Assembly (NCBI RefSeq): GCF_902459645.1
Contig: NZ_CABPSK010000001.1
Coordinates: 1,488,001 to 1,552,000, forward strand
DNA length: 64,000 nt
Direction: 5' to 3'
DNA from: Pandoraea pneumonica
GTDB taxonomy: Bacteria; Pseudomonadota; Gammaproteobacteria; Burkholderiales; Burkholderiaceae
Part shown: positions 58,638 through 64,000 of the stretch, in pieces
Layout: every line of letters starts with the position of its first letter
Numbering within the stretch: position 1 is the stretch's first letter
Translations under genes and position numbers: made by a program
Notes under the pieces: model-generated
What the model saw: the letters and a program-made list of their open reading frames with translations, nothing else
Database searches by the model: none
Told to the model about the DNA's origin: nothing

Positions 58638-59363
58638 TCACGTCTCGAATAAATGGCGCGCGCCGCGTTGCGCCGCGATGTAAATGGCTTCGCCGCGATT
58701 GCGGGCACCGAGCCGCCGGTACAACGCCGACACGTGCGTCTTGGCCGTCCCCTCGGAGATCACCAATTGCTGGCAAATCGTCTTGATCGAGAGACCGCGC
58801 GAGAGCAACGCGAGAATTTCATACTGCCGCTGCGAGATGCCGAGCAGCGCCGACTCCGCCAATTGGGTCGCCTTGTCGCCGCCCAACGGAAACACCGGCA
58901 TGCGCGAGAGCGGCAGCGCTTCGCCCAGCGCCTCCTGGCGCCAGAGCACGAGCAACGCCGAGAGTGCTTCTTCGGGCACGTAACGCCCGCCCGAAAACGC
59001 CACGTCGAAGACCGAACGAATCCGCGCGAGCGAGTTCGGCCACGGCAGACACGCGGTCACACCGGCCTGTAACCAGCGAATGATCTCGTCGGGAAAACCC
59101 GCATCGCCCACCACGATGACCGGCACCGGCGGCGTACATTCGCCAGCCATGGCACACAAGGTATCGATGACCGGCGTGCGCGCCACCGACTCGTCGAGCA
59201 CGAGCGCGCGCCGCGACGGCAGTTCGCGCAGCCAAAGCCAGTCCTGTCCCGTGACGTCGTCAACGTGACGCAGTACCGGTAGTGTCGCGTTCGCTTCGGT
59301 ATGCAACGCGACTTGCAGGCCGCTCAGCCAGGTGGCAGCCTCACCCACGACCAGCACACGCAT
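58638..59363 (-). CDS. LuxR-family regulator with degenerate receiver
   Basis: Protein of 241 residues. The C-terminal LuxR helix-turn-helix is clear (ISQRQYEILALLSRGLSIKTICQQLVISEGTAKTHVSALYRRLGA). The N-terminal domain has a receiver-like outline (MRVLVVGEAATWLSGLQ, LVLDESVA, VPVIVVGDAGFPDE) but lacks the acidic pair after the first strand and the conserved late lysine. It is therefore probably not phosphorylated in the usual way. Target genes unknown; the CoA-transferase operon downstream and the amyloid operon to the right are candidates. Confidence 0.82.
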   Translation of the reverse strand: MRVLVVGEAATWLSGLQVALHTEANATLPVLRHVDDVTGQDWLWLRELPSRRALVLDESVARTPVIDTLCAMAGECTPPVPVIVVGDAGFPDEIIRWLQAGVTACLPWPNSLARIRSVFDVAFSGGRYVPEEALSALLVLWRQEALGEALPLSRMPVFPLGGDKATQLAESALLGISQRQYEILALLSRGLSIKTICQQLVISEGTAKTHVSALYRRLGARNRGEAIYIAAQRGARHLFET

Positions 59364-59767: not shown

Positions 59768-60163
59768 ATGTCATACATATCCGTCAGTACGACGCGCACT
59801 GCCATGTTCTGCGTGGCCGTTGCGTGCTTCACCGCACCGGTCCACGCCGACTCGTTCGACGTGAGTGCCGTGCCGGTGGCCGTCAGCGATGCGCTGCTCA
59901 ACAGCACTCGCGCGACCAACGCGCAACGCGCACTTGTCACCAGCCTGCCAGGTGCCGCCCCTTCGGCGATCGCCCCGCTCACTGCCACGACGGTCGCGAA
60001 CAACGTGCGTCTGTGGGATGAAGTGATCCCGCCCGCACCATCACCCAAACCCACACAAGCATCGACGTCGGGCATGCCACGTACCGTCGTCGCCAGCTCA
60101 CAAAGTAATCTTCAATCCACCAGTCTGAACGTCAGCGCCAGTTCGTCGCGCATGCCGCGCTAA
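59768..60163 (+). CDS. Small exported protein of unknown function
   Basis: Protein of 131 residues. The ATG at 59768 has GGGGGG six bases upstream and opens a signal peptide (SYISVSTTRTAMFCVAVACFTAPVHA, cleavage after AHA-like VHA expected). The mature part is Ser/Thr/Ala/Pro-rich without cysteines. I do not recognise it. It converges on the barrel gene of the amyloid operon and may be unrelated to it. Confidence 0.55.
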   Translation: MSYISVSTTRTAMFCVAVACFTAPVHADSFDVSAVPVAVSDALLNSTRATNAQRALVTSLPGAAPSAIAPLTATTVANNVRLWDEVIPPAPSPKPTQASTSGMPRTVVASSQSNLQSTSLNVSASSSRMPR

Positions 60164-60249: not shown

Positions 60250-61581
60250 TCAGAACGTGTACGGGAACCGCACACCGATCACATAGTTCGGGGCATCCGG
60301 CGACATACCGGCGTTGACGTACCCGTTGATCGTCCAGTGCTTGTCGATCGCGTAGTTGATGCCGAAGTTGAGCGACGCGGCGTTGGTGTTGCTGCCCGCC
60401 ACCGTCGTCCAGCTCGAGCCCGGCGACTGCGTCTTCGTCGCGCGCGAAATGGCCGTCGAGTACGAGATCGAGAGCGCCGTCTTGTCGTTGAGTGCCAATG
60501 CCATCCCGGCGCCCACCTGAACGATGTCGCCCAGCTTGACCTTCGCCGGCGACACCGTGCCTTCGATGGTCGAGATGTCGTCGAACGAGCGTGCCACGTT
60601 GTACGTGTAAGCCACGTTCGCAAACAGCACGATCGGATCGTAGGTACGCAGGAACGACAACCCGGCCGTGAACGCCCAAATACCGTTACCCGTCGGCAGA
60701 CGCGACGGCGTGGTCAGGTTGTTGTTGGTCGGGTCGGGCGTGCCGAGCTTGATACCGAACGGCGACGTGCCGGTCGGTGCCGTCACCCGCAACGACGCGA
60801 CGATGTCAGGCCAGTTCTGCGACTCTTTGACGATCTGGTAATACAACGCCGCATTCACGTCGCCGATGTTCGCCGAGTTCTTGCTGATGTCGCTGATCGA
60901 CGACGCCGCACCGCCCACACCGCCCGCAATAAAGTCGGAATTGCGATACAGATACGGCACGTCGAACGCCACGCTCATCCGGTCGCTGATGCCGTAGCGC
61001 GTGTTGACGTCGAACGTCCACACGTTGGCTTTGGTTTCGCCGAGATTCAACTGACCGAGAAAGATCGCGTCGAGCGCAAGAAAGCCGCTCAGCACCAGTT
61101 GCCGACGATCGTAGTAGCTGTAGCTGATACCGGCATCGATGGTGAGCTTGTGGTCGAAGAGCGGCGCGTGCTGCGCTTGCACGACGGCCTCTTCCGCCGG
61201 TGTGCGTTGCGAGTCGCTCTCGCTCTTTTGCATCTGCTGCGTTTCGCCGATCGGCGTGGCGCTCGTGGGGCCTGCCGCCCCTGCCGAGCCGCCTGCCGGT
61301 GTGCCTGCCGAGCCGGCGGCGGAGCCGTCACCGGGCGAGACTTGCGCGATCTGCGCGGTATCCCAGGCCGTGAGCCCGCGTCCGCGTTGCGCCATCTCGA
61401 TGTCGGTCAGGCGTTGCTTCAGAGAAGAAATTTCCCGCTGCTGCCGGTCGACCATATCCATCAACATCTGAATACGATTGTCCGGCGATGGGTCCGTATG
61501 CTCCTGAGCCTGGGCCGATAGCGTGAAAAGCAGTACACCCCAAGTAATGGCGGCAACGGGAAAAAAACGGTGAGTCTTCAT
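60250..61581 (-). CDS. fapF: FapF-like outer-membrane amyloid secretion channel
   Basis: Outer-membrane barrel of 443 residues. The signal peptide ends SAQAQ. Residues about 32-65 form a coiled coil (RIQMLMDMVDRQQREISSLKQRL), matching the trimerising helix of FapF. A Gly/Ala/Ser-rich linker and a beta-barrel follow, with the striking SYYDRRQLVLSGFLALDAIFLG and a C-terminal aromatic (FPYTF). In Pseudomonas FapF is the pore that exports FapB/FapC. The ATG at 61581 follows a G-run; codons upstream are not protein-like. It is 384 bases from the preceding gene and may have its own promoter. Confidence 0.82.
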   Translation of the reverse strand: MKTHRFFPVAAITWGVLLFTLSAQAQEHTDPSPDNRIQMLMDMVDRQQREISSLKQRLTDIEMAQRGRGLTAWDTAQIAQVSPGDGSAAGSAGTPAGGSAGAAGPTSATPIGETQQMQKSESDSQRTPAEEAVVQAQHAPLFDHKLTIDAGISYSYYDRRQLVLSGFLALDAIFLGQLNLGETKANVWTFDVNTRYGISDRMSVAFDVPYLYRNSDFIAGGVGGAASSISDISKNSANIGDVNAALYYQIVKESQNWPDIVASLRVTAPTGTSPFGIKLGTPDPTNNNLTTPSRLPTGNGIWAFTAGLSFLRTYDPIVLFANVAYTYNVARSFDDISTIEGTVSPAKVKLGDIVQVGAGMALALNDKTALSISYSTAISRATKTQSPGSSWTTVAGSNTNAASLNFGINYAIDKHWTINGYVNAGMSPDAPNYVIGVRFPYTF

Positions 61582-61769
61582 GATCCCCCCCGGGTGAAAG
61601 TGCGGCGAGCGCCTTGCGACGGCATGCCGCGCGCAATCCAACAAACACGTGTTACCGAACGACGGTTGTCCTAGCTGCTCGACTGCGGAGCGACGCATGC
61701 AGGTTGTTTTTGCCGTGATTCGCGACCCTGCCGACGTCACCCTCTTGTTCGCTGCGCACCTCTGTACCC

Positions 61770-61792
61770 GTTACATCCGTAACATCCGTTAC
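61770..61792. promoter_or_regulatory. Triple alternating GTTAC/GTAAC half-site in the fapE-fapF gap
   Basis: Three 5-bp half-sites, GTTAC, GTAAC and GTTAC, each separated by ATCC, occur at 61770-61774, 61779-61783 and 61788-61792. The pattern makes two overlapping inverted repeats. It looks like an operator in the 384-base gap before the barrel gene. The rest of 61582-61965 shows no gene. Confidence 0.4.
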
Positions 61793-61965
61793 GCCCGCCG
61801 CAGACATCCTCGCGTGTGCGTATCGTTTGCCGGACTCAAGTACAAAGCAGCGTTGCCCCTTTCGTTGTCATTGCGCCCGCTAACCGACTAACCGACACCG
61901 GGCGCTGCTGGCTTCGCGTGACTGCGGCCGTACTGCTGTGCCGCCGCAACCACGCGAGCTGGGTT

Positions 61966-62733
61966 TCAGTGACGCACGACGACCATGTTCGCCATTGCGT
62001 TCTGAATGCCGAGCTGTCGAAGGGCATTCGACGTCAGCGGATTCGATTGCAAGTTCAATTGCAGCGTGTTCATCACCTGCTGCGCGTTGCCTGCGACCTG
62101 TACGACCTGCATGATTTGATTCATCGCGCCACCGGCACCGCCCGCCACGCTCTGGCCGAGATTGCCGTTGGGCGTATTCAATGCAATTTGCATGCCTGCG
62201 GACGTGATCGCCACGCTCGCGCTCAAATTGCCCACCGTGGTTTGCGAGTTGGTCTGACCTTGTGCGCTGGTGGGCACCAATGTCGTCAGCGACACGCCGG
62301 GGGCGTACTGGATGGTGGCCGTGTTGAGCGCGTTATTGGCATTGCCCGCCACTTGCGAGACCTGCGCCACGCCGTTGACCAGTACGCTGGCGGCGCCGGC
62401 GACGGCCTGGGTAATTGGGGTGGTCGCGTTCACCACGCCCGGGATGATGCCGGTCGAGGCAGCGGTCTGGACTTGATAGCCCGTGTTGTTGGCGTTCTGG
62501 TTCACACCGAGCACGCCGGTGGCCGCGAGACTGGCCCCGGTCGGCATTTGCCATTGCGACTGCATCACGAGCTGAAAGCCGGTGATCATGTTCTGCTGTG
62601 CGTATTTGCCGGTGGCTTGTGCAAGCACGTCGTCACCGACGGCCTGCCAGCTATCGGGCACCACGCCCGACGCGAATGCCGGCACGGCACTCACAACGAA
62701 CGGAATGGCCAGCATCGGGACGTAACGGTTCAT
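61966..62733 (-). CDS. fapE: FapE-like exported protein
   Basis: Exported protein of 255 residues with a signal peptide ending AFAS. Two related segments, VSQVAGNANNALNT and VVQVAGNAQQVMNT, resemble the paired motif of Pseudomonas FapE. The rest is Ala/Gly/Asn/Gln/Thr-rich. FapE is a minor extracellular fibre component in Pseudomonas. It starts 12 bases after the peptidase gene. Assignment rests on position and motif style. Confidence 0.7.
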   Translation of the reverse strand: MNRYVPMLAIPFVVSAVPAFASGVVPDSWQAVGDDVLAQATGKYAQQNMITGFQLVMQSQWQMPTGASLAATGVLGVNQNANNTGYQVQTAASTGIIPGVVNATTPITQAVAGAASVLVNGVAQVSQVAGNANNALNTATIQYAPGVSLTTLVPTSAQGQTNSQTTVGNLSASVAITSAGMQIALNTPNGNLGQSVAGGAGGAMNQIMQVVQVAGNAQQVMNTLQLNLQSNPLTSNALRQLGIQNAMANMVVVRH

Positions 62734-62745
62734 GATGTTCTGGTC

Positions 62746-63456
62746 TCAAAACAGGTTCGACCGGATGATGCCGAAGTCCACCATCGGGGTCGCTGTCGTC
62801 CCGGTCGACAAGGCGCTGTCGCGCAACTTGATCGCCTGAGACTCGTTTCCTTTGAGTAGCGGAGAATCCTCCAGGAACGGCTTGCCGATCACCGCCAACA
62901 CCAAGCCATTCCACTGCTTGGCAAAATCGGCCTGCTCGATAATTCGGTTGCCCAATGCGGGATCGGACACGAAGATGCGTCCGTCTTTCGCCGCCTTGAT
63001 GAGCACGAAGTGCTGATAACCGTTGACATCGATGAGCGCGATGACCGGAATCTTCAGGTCGTAAAGCGCATTGATGTCTACCTTGAAGCCACGCCCCTCG
63101 AGTCCGAGTGTCTCGACGAATTTCTTCATATCGAGCATCGAGAACCCATTCTTGATGACGGTCTCCGGATTGGAGAAGACCATCATTCGCTTGATCATTT
63201 CCGCCTCGGGAATATCGATCCCGTAGCCGTATTGCAGCAGCGTTGCGAGCGCTGCGGAACCACAACTGAAGTCGTACTGTTGCTGAACCAGATTCACGTA
63301 GTGCATCGATTTGAATGACCGCATCTTCTTGACCGCCGGTACACCAGTCGAAGAATCCAGGTTCACCGATGCATACTGCGCGTGCCCGGCCACGCTTGCG
63401 CACGCCAGAGCGCAAACAGTAGCGATCCGTACTACGGCACGACGCGCATCACTCAT
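62746..63456 (-). CDS. fapD: FapD-like C39 cysteine peptidase
   Basis: Papain-like C39 peptidase of 236 residues without a transporter domain. The signal peptide ends VAGHA. Catalytic Cys65 lies in YDFSCGSAALATLL, His149 in GYQHFVLI, and Asp165 in SDPALG. Pseudomonas FapD has the same layout and is needed for amyloid export. The ATG at 63456 is chosen because GAGGTG lies five bases upstream. It sits directly after a terminator-like hairpin. Confidence 0.85.
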   Translation of the reverse strand: MSDARRAVVRIATVCALACASVAGHAQYASVNLDSSTGVPAVKKMRSFKSMHYVNLVQQQYDFSCGSAALATLLQYGYGIDIPEAEMIKRMMVFSNPETVIKNGFSMLDMKKFVETLGLEGRGFKVDINALYDLKIPVIALIDVNGYQHFVLIKAAKDGRIFVSDPALGNRIIEQADFAKQWNGLVLAVIGKPFLEDSPLLKGNESQAIKLRDSALSTGTTATPMVDFGIIRSNLF

Positions 63457-63469
63457 GACACACCTCATG

Positions 63470-63501
63470 AAAAAACCGGTCCGGGAAGCCCCGGACCGGT
63501 T
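63470..63501 (-). terminator. Intra-operon terminator/attenuator between amyloid gene and fapD
   Basis: A 12-bp perfect stem (63474-63485 and 63490-63501, AACCGGTCCGGG) with a 4-base loop. Read leftward it runs directly into TTTTTTC. It sits 8 bases past the amyloid stop codon and 14 bases before the peptidase start. Partial readthrough would leave the subunit message far more abundant than the export-machinery message. Confidence 0.85.
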
Positions 63502-63508
63502 ATGCACT

Positions 63509-64000
63509 TCACTTGATTGCCGAGATTGCGAGGCTGTTGCTCTGGACGTTGCCGATACCCGATGCCACGTTCACACCGATGTTGCCGGTTGCGCCAGCCA
63601 GGGCACCTGCGCCCAGCGATGCCGTCGCGATGAAGTTGCCCGAAGCTGCCATACCGGCCTTTTGGTCGGTTTGCGCCGTCGAGTTAGCTGCACCACCCGA
63701 GTACCAGCCGCTTGCCCCTTGCGAGACAGCTGCGGCCAGGCCGTTTTGCTGCACGTTGCCGATACCCGATGCCACGTTCACACCGACGTTGCCGCTCGCA
63801 CCGGCAAGGGCACCATCACCCACGCTGGCGTTCACATAGTATTGCGAGAGGCTGGCCGAACCCTTCGACGACTGGTTCGCAAACACCTGAGCCGACGCAT
63901 ACACCGGCTGAGCATTGAGCGAAGCGATCGCGACGTTGTTGGCCTGTGCGTTGTCAGCACCTGCGGCCACGTTCACGCCCATGTTGCCGTTAGCACCGGC
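63509..64000 (-). CDS. fapC: FapC/FapB-like functional amyloid repeat protein, 5' end outside window
   Basis: The C-terminal 163 residues of a repeat protein that continues past the right edge. Three imperfect repeats are present, each with the core GN(M/V/I)GVNVA(A/S)G and a following N/Q-rich piece (ADNAQANN, IGNVQQNG, IGNVQSNS). They are 65-69 residues apart and separated by Ser/Ala/Gly/Tyr linkers. This is the FapB/FapC amyloid pattern. The position directly upstream of the peptidase fits FapC. The CxxC near the C-terminus of Pseudomonas FapC is absent; the protein ends LAISAIK. Confidence 0.8.
   Translation of the reverse strand, partial: AGANGNMGVNVAAGADNAQANNVAIASLNAQPVYASAQVFANQSSKGSASLSQYYVNASVGDGALAGASGNVGVNVASGIGNVQQNGLAAAVSQGASGWYSGGAANSTAQTDQKAGMAASGNFIATASLGAGALAGATGNIGVNVASGIGNVQSNSLAISAIK

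Follow-up and report, generated by a model that had tools for sequence, protein, structure and literature searches.

What do the genes at the right-hand end of a 64 kb stretch of Pandoraea DNA (G000:C1:1488001-1552000, here called the window) encode, and on which proteins would their peptidase act? The genes in question occupy positions 60250-64000 of the minus strand, and a first-pass annotation, made from the letters of the window, had read them as fapC-fapD-fapE-fapF of a Fap-type functional amyloid operon. Our analysis confirmed the presence of these genes, and it is probable that they belong to a complete operon in the order activator, sigma54 promoter, LWDE1 (an extra first gene, whose product appears to be exported and carries a conserved LWDE motif), fapA-fapB-fapC-fapD-fapE, a gap and fapF, followed by the LWDE1 paralogue LWDE2 and a LuxR-type regulator, with FapD acting as a leader peptidase. 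The operon itself is unsurprising, because a first publication on betaproteobacterial Fap dates from 2013 and one that mentions Pandoraea from 2018: Fap is described from Beta-, Gamma- and Deltaproteobacteria, Burkholderia and Ralstonia species being named (Dueholm et al., 2013, PMC3792158), and a Pandoraea sp. is listed among the Fap-encoding species of severe lung infection (PMC6173800). The Fap reading of the annotation is therefore supported, with the qualifications that such operons had already been published in betaproteobacteria and that the extra first gene lies outside the window.

Within the window the minus strand carries fapF, fapE, fapD and the 3' end of fapC, in the order, orientation and domain layout initially proposed:

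60250..61581, minus strand: fapF, outer-membrane amyloid channel (NCBIfam NF058560, E 1.4e-111; PDB 5o65, E 6.5e-78)
61966..62733, minus strand: fapE, minor subunit (NCBIfam NF058559, E 1.9e-14), with a signal-peptide-like N-terminus judged by eye
62746..63456, minus strand: fapD, C39 cysteine peptidase (Pfam PF03412, E 5.8e-26; NCBIfam NF058616, E 1.3e-57)
63509..64000, minus strand: 3' part of the gene for the major amyloid subunit, fapC (NCBIfam NF058558, E 2.9e-21 with the portion inside the window)

All four products matched their families in the profile search, with scores below the NCBI cut-offs that are discussed further down. FapF, which is 82-95% identical to the products of 18 named Pandoraea loci, aligns over 301 residues (145-445) with the crystal structure of Pseudomonas FapF (5o65), keeps two PTG motifs and places its stretch DRRQLVLSGFLALDAIFLG on DARQLTLNGFLALDSIFLG of the structure; the median ratio of nonsynonymous to synonymous substitution rates (dN/dS) of fapF is 0.056 over 171 Pandoraea pairs. 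The barrel of the coiled-coil-plus-barrel channel claimed for it is assigned by homology, while the N-terminal coiled coil and the signal peptide are called by eye and by analogy. Signal peptides were called by eye throughout, not with a prediction tool. FapE is placed between FapD and FapF by both profile and synteny, and shows the paired QVAGNA motifs anticipated for it, at residues 127 and 212. In FapD the catalytic codons are present (Cys 63262-63264, His 63010-63012, Asp 62962-62964), and a Pfam search found no ABC (ATP-binding cassette) transporter domain in the protein. Neither of the outcomes that would have contradicted the annotation, missing FapF or FapD matches or a peptidase-containing ABC transporter, was encountered. 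The signal-peptide-like N-terminus of FapD suggests, by analogy, a periplasmic location.

The remainder of the subunit gene and, perhaps, fapA and fapB had been expected to the right, and all three, including fapA, which Fap systems often lack, were found there together with the further gene. Their positions continue the coordinates of the window beyond its end:

up to 64894, minus strand: full extent of fapC, 461 amino acids
64919-65569: fapB, 216 amino acids (NCBIfam E 3.8e-24)
about 65566-66060: fapA (NF058617, E 1.7e-6, a weak match)
66072-66692: LWDE1, about 207 amino acids, first gene of the operon
66723-66737: sigma54-like site TGGCACGGAAGTCGC
67558-68919: BrfA/VpsR-type activator

The full FapC has three amyloid repeats, two of which lie whole in the window along with part of repeat 1, and FapB likewise has three. 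In the search of the sequence to the right of the window, which also returned FapB and FapA, FapC matched its NCBIfam model at E 1.2e-16; the full protein matched PDB FapC 9nqd (E 7.5e-11) as well as 9u4u. A separate N-terminal domain in FapC was considered and rejected, since alignment revealed a variable glycine/serine (G/S)-rich insert, preceded by a conserved N-terminal motif and followed by repeat 1. This agrees with the variation of FapC size in linkers that was reported earlier (PMC3792158). From LWDE1 to fapE the genes are tightly spaced, from overlap to about 50 nucleotides, and the gene order is identical at 18/18 named Pandoraea loci, many start codons in these comparisons being those of the longest open reading frames (ORFs).

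The sigma54-like site lies 45 nucleotides ahead of the ATG of LWDE1 and scores 29 of 30 points. It is identical at 17 of the 18 named Pandoraea loci (27 points at L013) and is matched by 0-5 of 100 shuffles; the promoter is called by consensus match only, on weights of our own, and at L009 and L010 the longest LWDE1 ORF begins upstream of the site. In another 17 fap loci from the family (L057-L073, of which two belong to the same genus), the best site was equalled by at most 6 of 100 shuffles in 14. The activator carries a VpsR domain (PF20161, E 1.4e-21), the sole match to this domain in the genome at E 0.01, and its GAFTGA loop is invariant in nine aligned sequences. Its relatives flank 15 of these 17 loci (exceptions L058 and L070) and 8 of 10 more distant fap loci (exceptions L149 and L150). 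At L142 and L143, which are presumed to be Pseudomonas because of their FapF scores, the activator relative is 441 amino acids long, reversed and downstream of fapF, which is the place and size of brfA, a 1326-bp ORF (PMC9207406). In P. fluorescens PF07, fapA is preceded by an RpoN-dependent -24/-12 promoter and the activator BrfA is encoded alongside (PMC9207406, PMC13101488), and BerB of Burkholderia cenocepacia, an RpoN-dependent activator that binds cyclic diguanylate (c-di-GMP), offers a precedent (PMC5552954). By analogy, the site and the activator suggest c-di-GMP control of fap in Pandoraea. In several genera (L121, L126, L128, L129, L060-L064) the fap or LWDE locus was also seen to lie between a pair of VpsR/BrfA-type activators.

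The substrate of FapD is addressed by a short segment of FapE:

62605..62640, minus strand: putative FapE leader VGDDVLAQATGK, residues 32-43, with the predicted FapD cut after residue 43

The corresponding 12-mer, [VLI]x[DE]xx[LM]xxx[RT]G[KR], was found soon after a signal-peptide-like start in 45/45 FapE proteins, from Pandoraea to distant genera, as 29 distinct segments (two of the 45 have A at the first place); in presumed Pseudomonas FapE it reads like LKDAEMADLRGR. Leader recognition by C39 peptidases involves Leu at -12, Glu at -8, Leu at -7, a hydrophobic residue at -4 and Gly at -2, and known double-glycine leaders end in GG, GA or GS (PMC6363468). The segment resembles this pattern, L(-12)...E(-8)L(-7)..(-4).G(-2), in both FapE and LWDE1; many leaders have V or Q at -8, and A or Q is frequent at -4. 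A scoring matrix built from FapE only found the segment in 16/16 LWDE1 proteins (at most 1 of 300 shuffles as good) and in 19/19 further fap-linked ones. The segment was thus present in all 35 sampled fap-linked LWDE1 proteins, the 16 being judged by the matrix (their segments also fit the pattern) and the 19 by both tests. In contrast, among 29 sampled LWDE proteins without fap nearby the pattern occurred in none and the matrix passed one (L128). These 29 comprise 9, a further 19 and L191 (genome G201, a strong LWDE hit with the activator only); L152 gave no LWDE ORF and was dropped. A locus counts as "without fap nearby" if the sequence retrieved around it (13-14 kb at L121-L129, 11 kb at L191, about 5 kb at the remaining loci) has no fap match and its genome has no strong FapF; the exception is G205, which has a fap operon elsewhere. 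The contrast between linked and unlinked proteins holds within genera g11, g20 and g25, and in G205 the segment occurs in the fap-linked copy (L065) but not in the second one (L129). An exact test gives the contrast a nominal probability of 7e-19, which ignores kinship and is not to be taken literally. As background, at 11 bits the matrix passes one of 192 window ORFs of at least 100 amino acids, namely FapE itself, and one of 61 ORFs at L008. Cleavage of such leaders by FapD was not met with as a proposal in the open-access papers found, passages of PMC5557850 and PMC5135000 among them.

LWDE1 belongs to a family for which no credible Pfam, NCBIfam or PHROG match was found (the two NCBIfam matches that did appear, at E 0.02, are unrelated and fall far short of the cut-off), and the word LWDE does not occur among the matches listed in our literature search; the extra gene is not in the papers found. 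LWDE matches at E 1e-4 or better occur in 120 of 299 genomes of the family and in 3 of 398 of the phylum (the genome of the window and two others from the same family), counts that may miss some members, since only the best 14 (family) and 10 (phylum) first-look candidates per genome were scored. Strong hits (E 3.8e-20 or better) lie beside fapF in 85 of 88 cases. Conversely, 81 of 92 FapF-bearing family genomes (90 with FapF above 330 bits plus the partial hits G228 and G037) have an LWDE gene, which in 80 is upstream of fapF on the same strand; a weaker LWDE-like ORF (E 0.0097) precedes fapB at L145, in another family of the order. Without fap nearby, one or two activators adjoin the LWDE gene at 29/29 loci, and a sigma54-like site was found at 9/9 examined (0-7 of 200 shuffles as good). 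Within L057-L073, LWDE1 accompanies 12/12 long-FapC and 0/5 short-FapC loci. Two Pandoraea species keep LWDE1 with an altered FapC: the insert is missing in L025 (P. terrae, 259 amino acids) and shortened in L024 (P. horticolens, 393 amino acids). Median dN/dS values of 0.33 for LWDE1 and 0.31 for its paralogue indicate purifying selection. The paralogue has a degenerate leader, VSDALLNSTRAT:

59768..60163, plus strand: LWDE2, convergent with fapF, present at 18/18 named Pandoraea loci

In relatives, a C39 enzyme also occurs beside a FapF-like barrel as a second, paralogous pair, examined at 22 loci (L074, L075, L076, L192-L210). The C39 enzyme and an E-like gene were found at 21 of them (L193 has the barrel only), and an upstream neighbour was recognized by similarity at 16. 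A leader ending in GG is present in 21/21 E-like and 16/16 upstream proteins, i.e., in 37/37 detected partners. Profile comparison with hhalign superposed the leaders of FapE and the E-like proteins (E 6e-5, probability 65%, 33 columns), did likewise for LWDE and FapE (E 3e-5, 74%, 29 columns) and matched the E-like to the upstream proteins (E 1.3e-5, 81%); FapE or LWDE against the upstream proteins, LWDE against the E-like ones, and FapA against the upstream proteins or LWDE gave about 1% or less. A matrix built from the 37 paralogous leaders only placed its best site on the segment in 45/45 FapE proteins and in 13/16 LWDE1 proteins; for this test both were trimmed at the front (FapE, except that of the window, to start at most 45 residues before the segment). 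An Asn-rich, exported-looking protein, possibly an amyloid-like substrate, adjoins the paralogous system at L074:5504-6670.

The proposed mechanism borrows from Pseudomonas, where it is established that the Fap proteins are exported by Sec, as would also apply here. Also as in Pseudomonas, c-di-GMP at a high level would act on the activator and, together with RpoN, turn the operon on. FapE and LWDE1 would enter the periplasm via Sec, where FapD would recognize [VLI]x[DE]xx[LM]xxx[RT]G[KRG] in both and cut after the leader (G-K/R/G), which would license the secretion of FapE and so of FapC. FapC, FapB and FapE would then pass FapF, and FapC would build the amyloid of the biofilm matrix, as in Pseudomonas. 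LWDE1 would be the second FapD substrate, probably a secreted or surface accessory protein. It also seems somewhat probable that C39 enzymes of the FapD type are, as a class, periplasmic leader peptidases whose clients combine a Sec signal with a double-glycine-type leader. In Fap systems these clients would be FapE everywhere and, in much of Burkholderiaceae, LWDE1, which would be exported and transcribed first and is tied to the activator even after fap loss; the same would apply to the second secretion system of relatives, with its FapF-like barrel, two RGG-leader partners and, at least once, an Asn-rich exported protein. The operon extends a known system. With it comes a family of apparently exported proteins that accompanies the fap activator, and a possibly c-di-GMP-controlled amyloid becomes testable in Pandoraea.

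The alternative that survives best is an ordinary Fap operon in which FapD acts elsewhere, on the FapF linker or an internal GG of FapE, the 12-mer being a docking site for FapF or FapA and not a cut site. Rouse et al. suggest the GG/GA motifs of FapE and the FapF linker as FapD candidates (PMC5557850), and such pairs exist here, GG/GA at FapE 198-202 and GG at FapF 99; moreover, K or R is unusual as the last leader residue for C39 cutting. Nevertheless, the 12-mer is in register with the canonical RGG leaders of the paralogous system, both E-like and upstream, and matches the C39 recognition positions -12, -7 and -4 as well as Gly at -2, so that we consider this alternative unlikely.

Several observations weigh against FapD as the leader peptidase of this operon. 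The proposal is drawn from sequence evidence, and the genomes compared are related, so that counts are not independent events. At position -1, where known leaders have G, A or S, all 45 FapE proteins have K or R; the residue varies among R, G, T and S in LWDE1, and only some LWDE1 proteins have G or S. The missing part of FapE in Pseudomonas UK4, about 70 residues, exceeds the length of the leader (PMC5557850). The loose pattern fits 6 of the 192 window ORFs, FapC among them, and some FapD, FapB and FapC proteins likewise yield sites with the FapE matrix. L128, which passes the matrix without fap nearby, retains a remnant of fapB. Although LWDE2 is encoded in the fap locus, three of its five rows fail the matrix; a link of LWDE2 to FapD is unsupported in most rows. 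With the 37-leader matrix, three of 16 LWDE1 segments are missed and single FapE scores are weak (3/45 at no more than 4 of 200 shuffles), and LWDE against the RGG proteins gives profile probabilities of 0.2% and 1%. As regards the promoter, sites are weaker at 3 of the 17 further family loci, where 64 (L066), 15 (L070) and 8 (L071) of 100 shuffles were as good. FapA was tried as a third leader protein and rejected: the FapE matrix reached 3 or fewer of 300 shuffles in only one of nine upstream ORFs (one of the nine being the LWDE-like ORF of L145), at a different segment, and 89 of 300 shuffles equalled the FapA of the window, similar-looking stretches existing in FapA proteins.

A further point against a complete Fap operon is that all six proteins score under the NCBI equivalog cut-offs, in bits against cut-off FapF 373/700, FapD 195/330, FapE 53.5/250, FapC 61/195, FapB 85/190 and FapA 28/110. 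In the FapF search, 140 of 299 family genomes had a match and none exceeded the cut-off, and 7 of 398 phylum genomes did, these being presumed Pseudomonas; the cut-off is a naming threshold and not a biological feature. Low scores might also indicate a decayed or silent operon, and FapC is shortened in one Pandoraea relative, the 393-residue protein of L024. We regard this as improbable: reading frames are intact, catalytic residues and promoter are conserved, and median dN/dS, which is 0.03-0.33 across all ten locus genes (171 Pandoraea pairs each), indicates purifying selection. The remotest reading, a Fil-type pilus or another C39-linked secretion system, can draw on matches to the FilB and FilC models (E 2.1e-36, on the FapD protein, and 1.5e-11) and on the second C39 and FapF-like pair of relatives, but the Fap models are much stronger (1.3e-57 and 1.4e-111) and the Fap repeats of FapB and FapC as well as FapE are present. 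The Fil pilus was accordingly rejected, as was an ABC-type C39 exporter, since FapD has no transporter domain. By every biological feature that we could examine in sequence, the locus is a Fap system.

Two neighbouring elements may concern the regulation of this Fap operon:

61582..61965, minus strand: long gap between fapE and fapF, with a conserved stretch directly upstream of fapF
58638..59363, minus strand: LuxR/CsgD-type regulator (Pfam GerE, E 9.4e-13), adjoining the operon at 18/18 named Pandoraea loci

About 100 nucleotides of the gap are conserved across Pandoraea, and a GTAACGGATGTTACGGATGTAACGGG repeat occurs in this genome. A sigma54 promoter for fapF was considered and dropped, as no good site was found upstream of it in the window (best 23 of 30 points) and only weak, scattered ones in relatives. 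In P. fluorescens PF07 fapF is reported not to be induced together with fapA-E (PMC9207406), and we infer separate control of fapF. The LuxR protein scores 39 bits against the CsgD model (cut-off 250) and is a candidate regulator of fap. By eye, unaligned, it reads YVPE where the W[FLM][TS]R motif of c-di-GMP receptors of the VpsT type would be expected, and this motif seems to be missing. The VpsR-VpsT and BerB-BerA pairs suggest, by analogy, a possible cascade from activator to LuxR protein in Pandoraea. Upstream of LWDE2 and the LuxR gene no position-conserved sigma54 site was found across the 18 Pandoraea loci; L014 has a 27-point site, 299 nucleotides before LWDE2.

Far from the operon, an orphan mini-FapC of 152 amino acids was observed at L008:8245-8703 (G000:C2:1134247-1134702), with a signal-peptide-like start and two stretches matching the FapC model. 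Of 32 genomes examined in the genus, 27 have it (E below 1e-40; median dN/dS 0.215), and it is possibly an extra or capping subunit. A sigma54 promoter was sought for it and discarded, as nothing was conserved in the 17 of 27 loci parsed (10 were without a repeat-pattern match).

Compared with known systems, the locus shares with Pseudomonas fapABCDEF its gene content and order, a three-repeat FapC, a C39 FapD, the FapF channel and a neighbouring sigma54 activator, while Pandoraea has in addition LWDE1, the G/S-rich insert of FapC and the long gap before fapF. The activator is upstream and on the same strand in Pandoraea, whereas in Pseudomonas it is downstream and reversed. The BrfA/RpoN/c-di-GMP control of fap in P. 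fluorescens PF07 is similar in that the neighbouring activator belongs to the same family and the first gene follows a -24/-12 promoter (PMC9207406, PMC13101488); the Pandoraea activator is 44-45% identical to its presumed Pseudomonas relatives and is likened to BrfA by family and by adjacency to fap. FapD shares the C39 family and leader positions -12, -7, -4 and -2 with peptidase-containing ABC transporters; unlike these, it comes without a transporter and would, by analogy, be periplasmic, and the leaders proposed for it stand behind a Sec-type signal and have G-K/R/G as their last residues. The Fil pilus and the paralogous pair, finally, also place a C39 peptidase with a signal-peptide-like start beside a FapF-like barrel, but the Fap models fit the window better than those of Fil, and the partners of the paralogous pair carry the full RGG leader.

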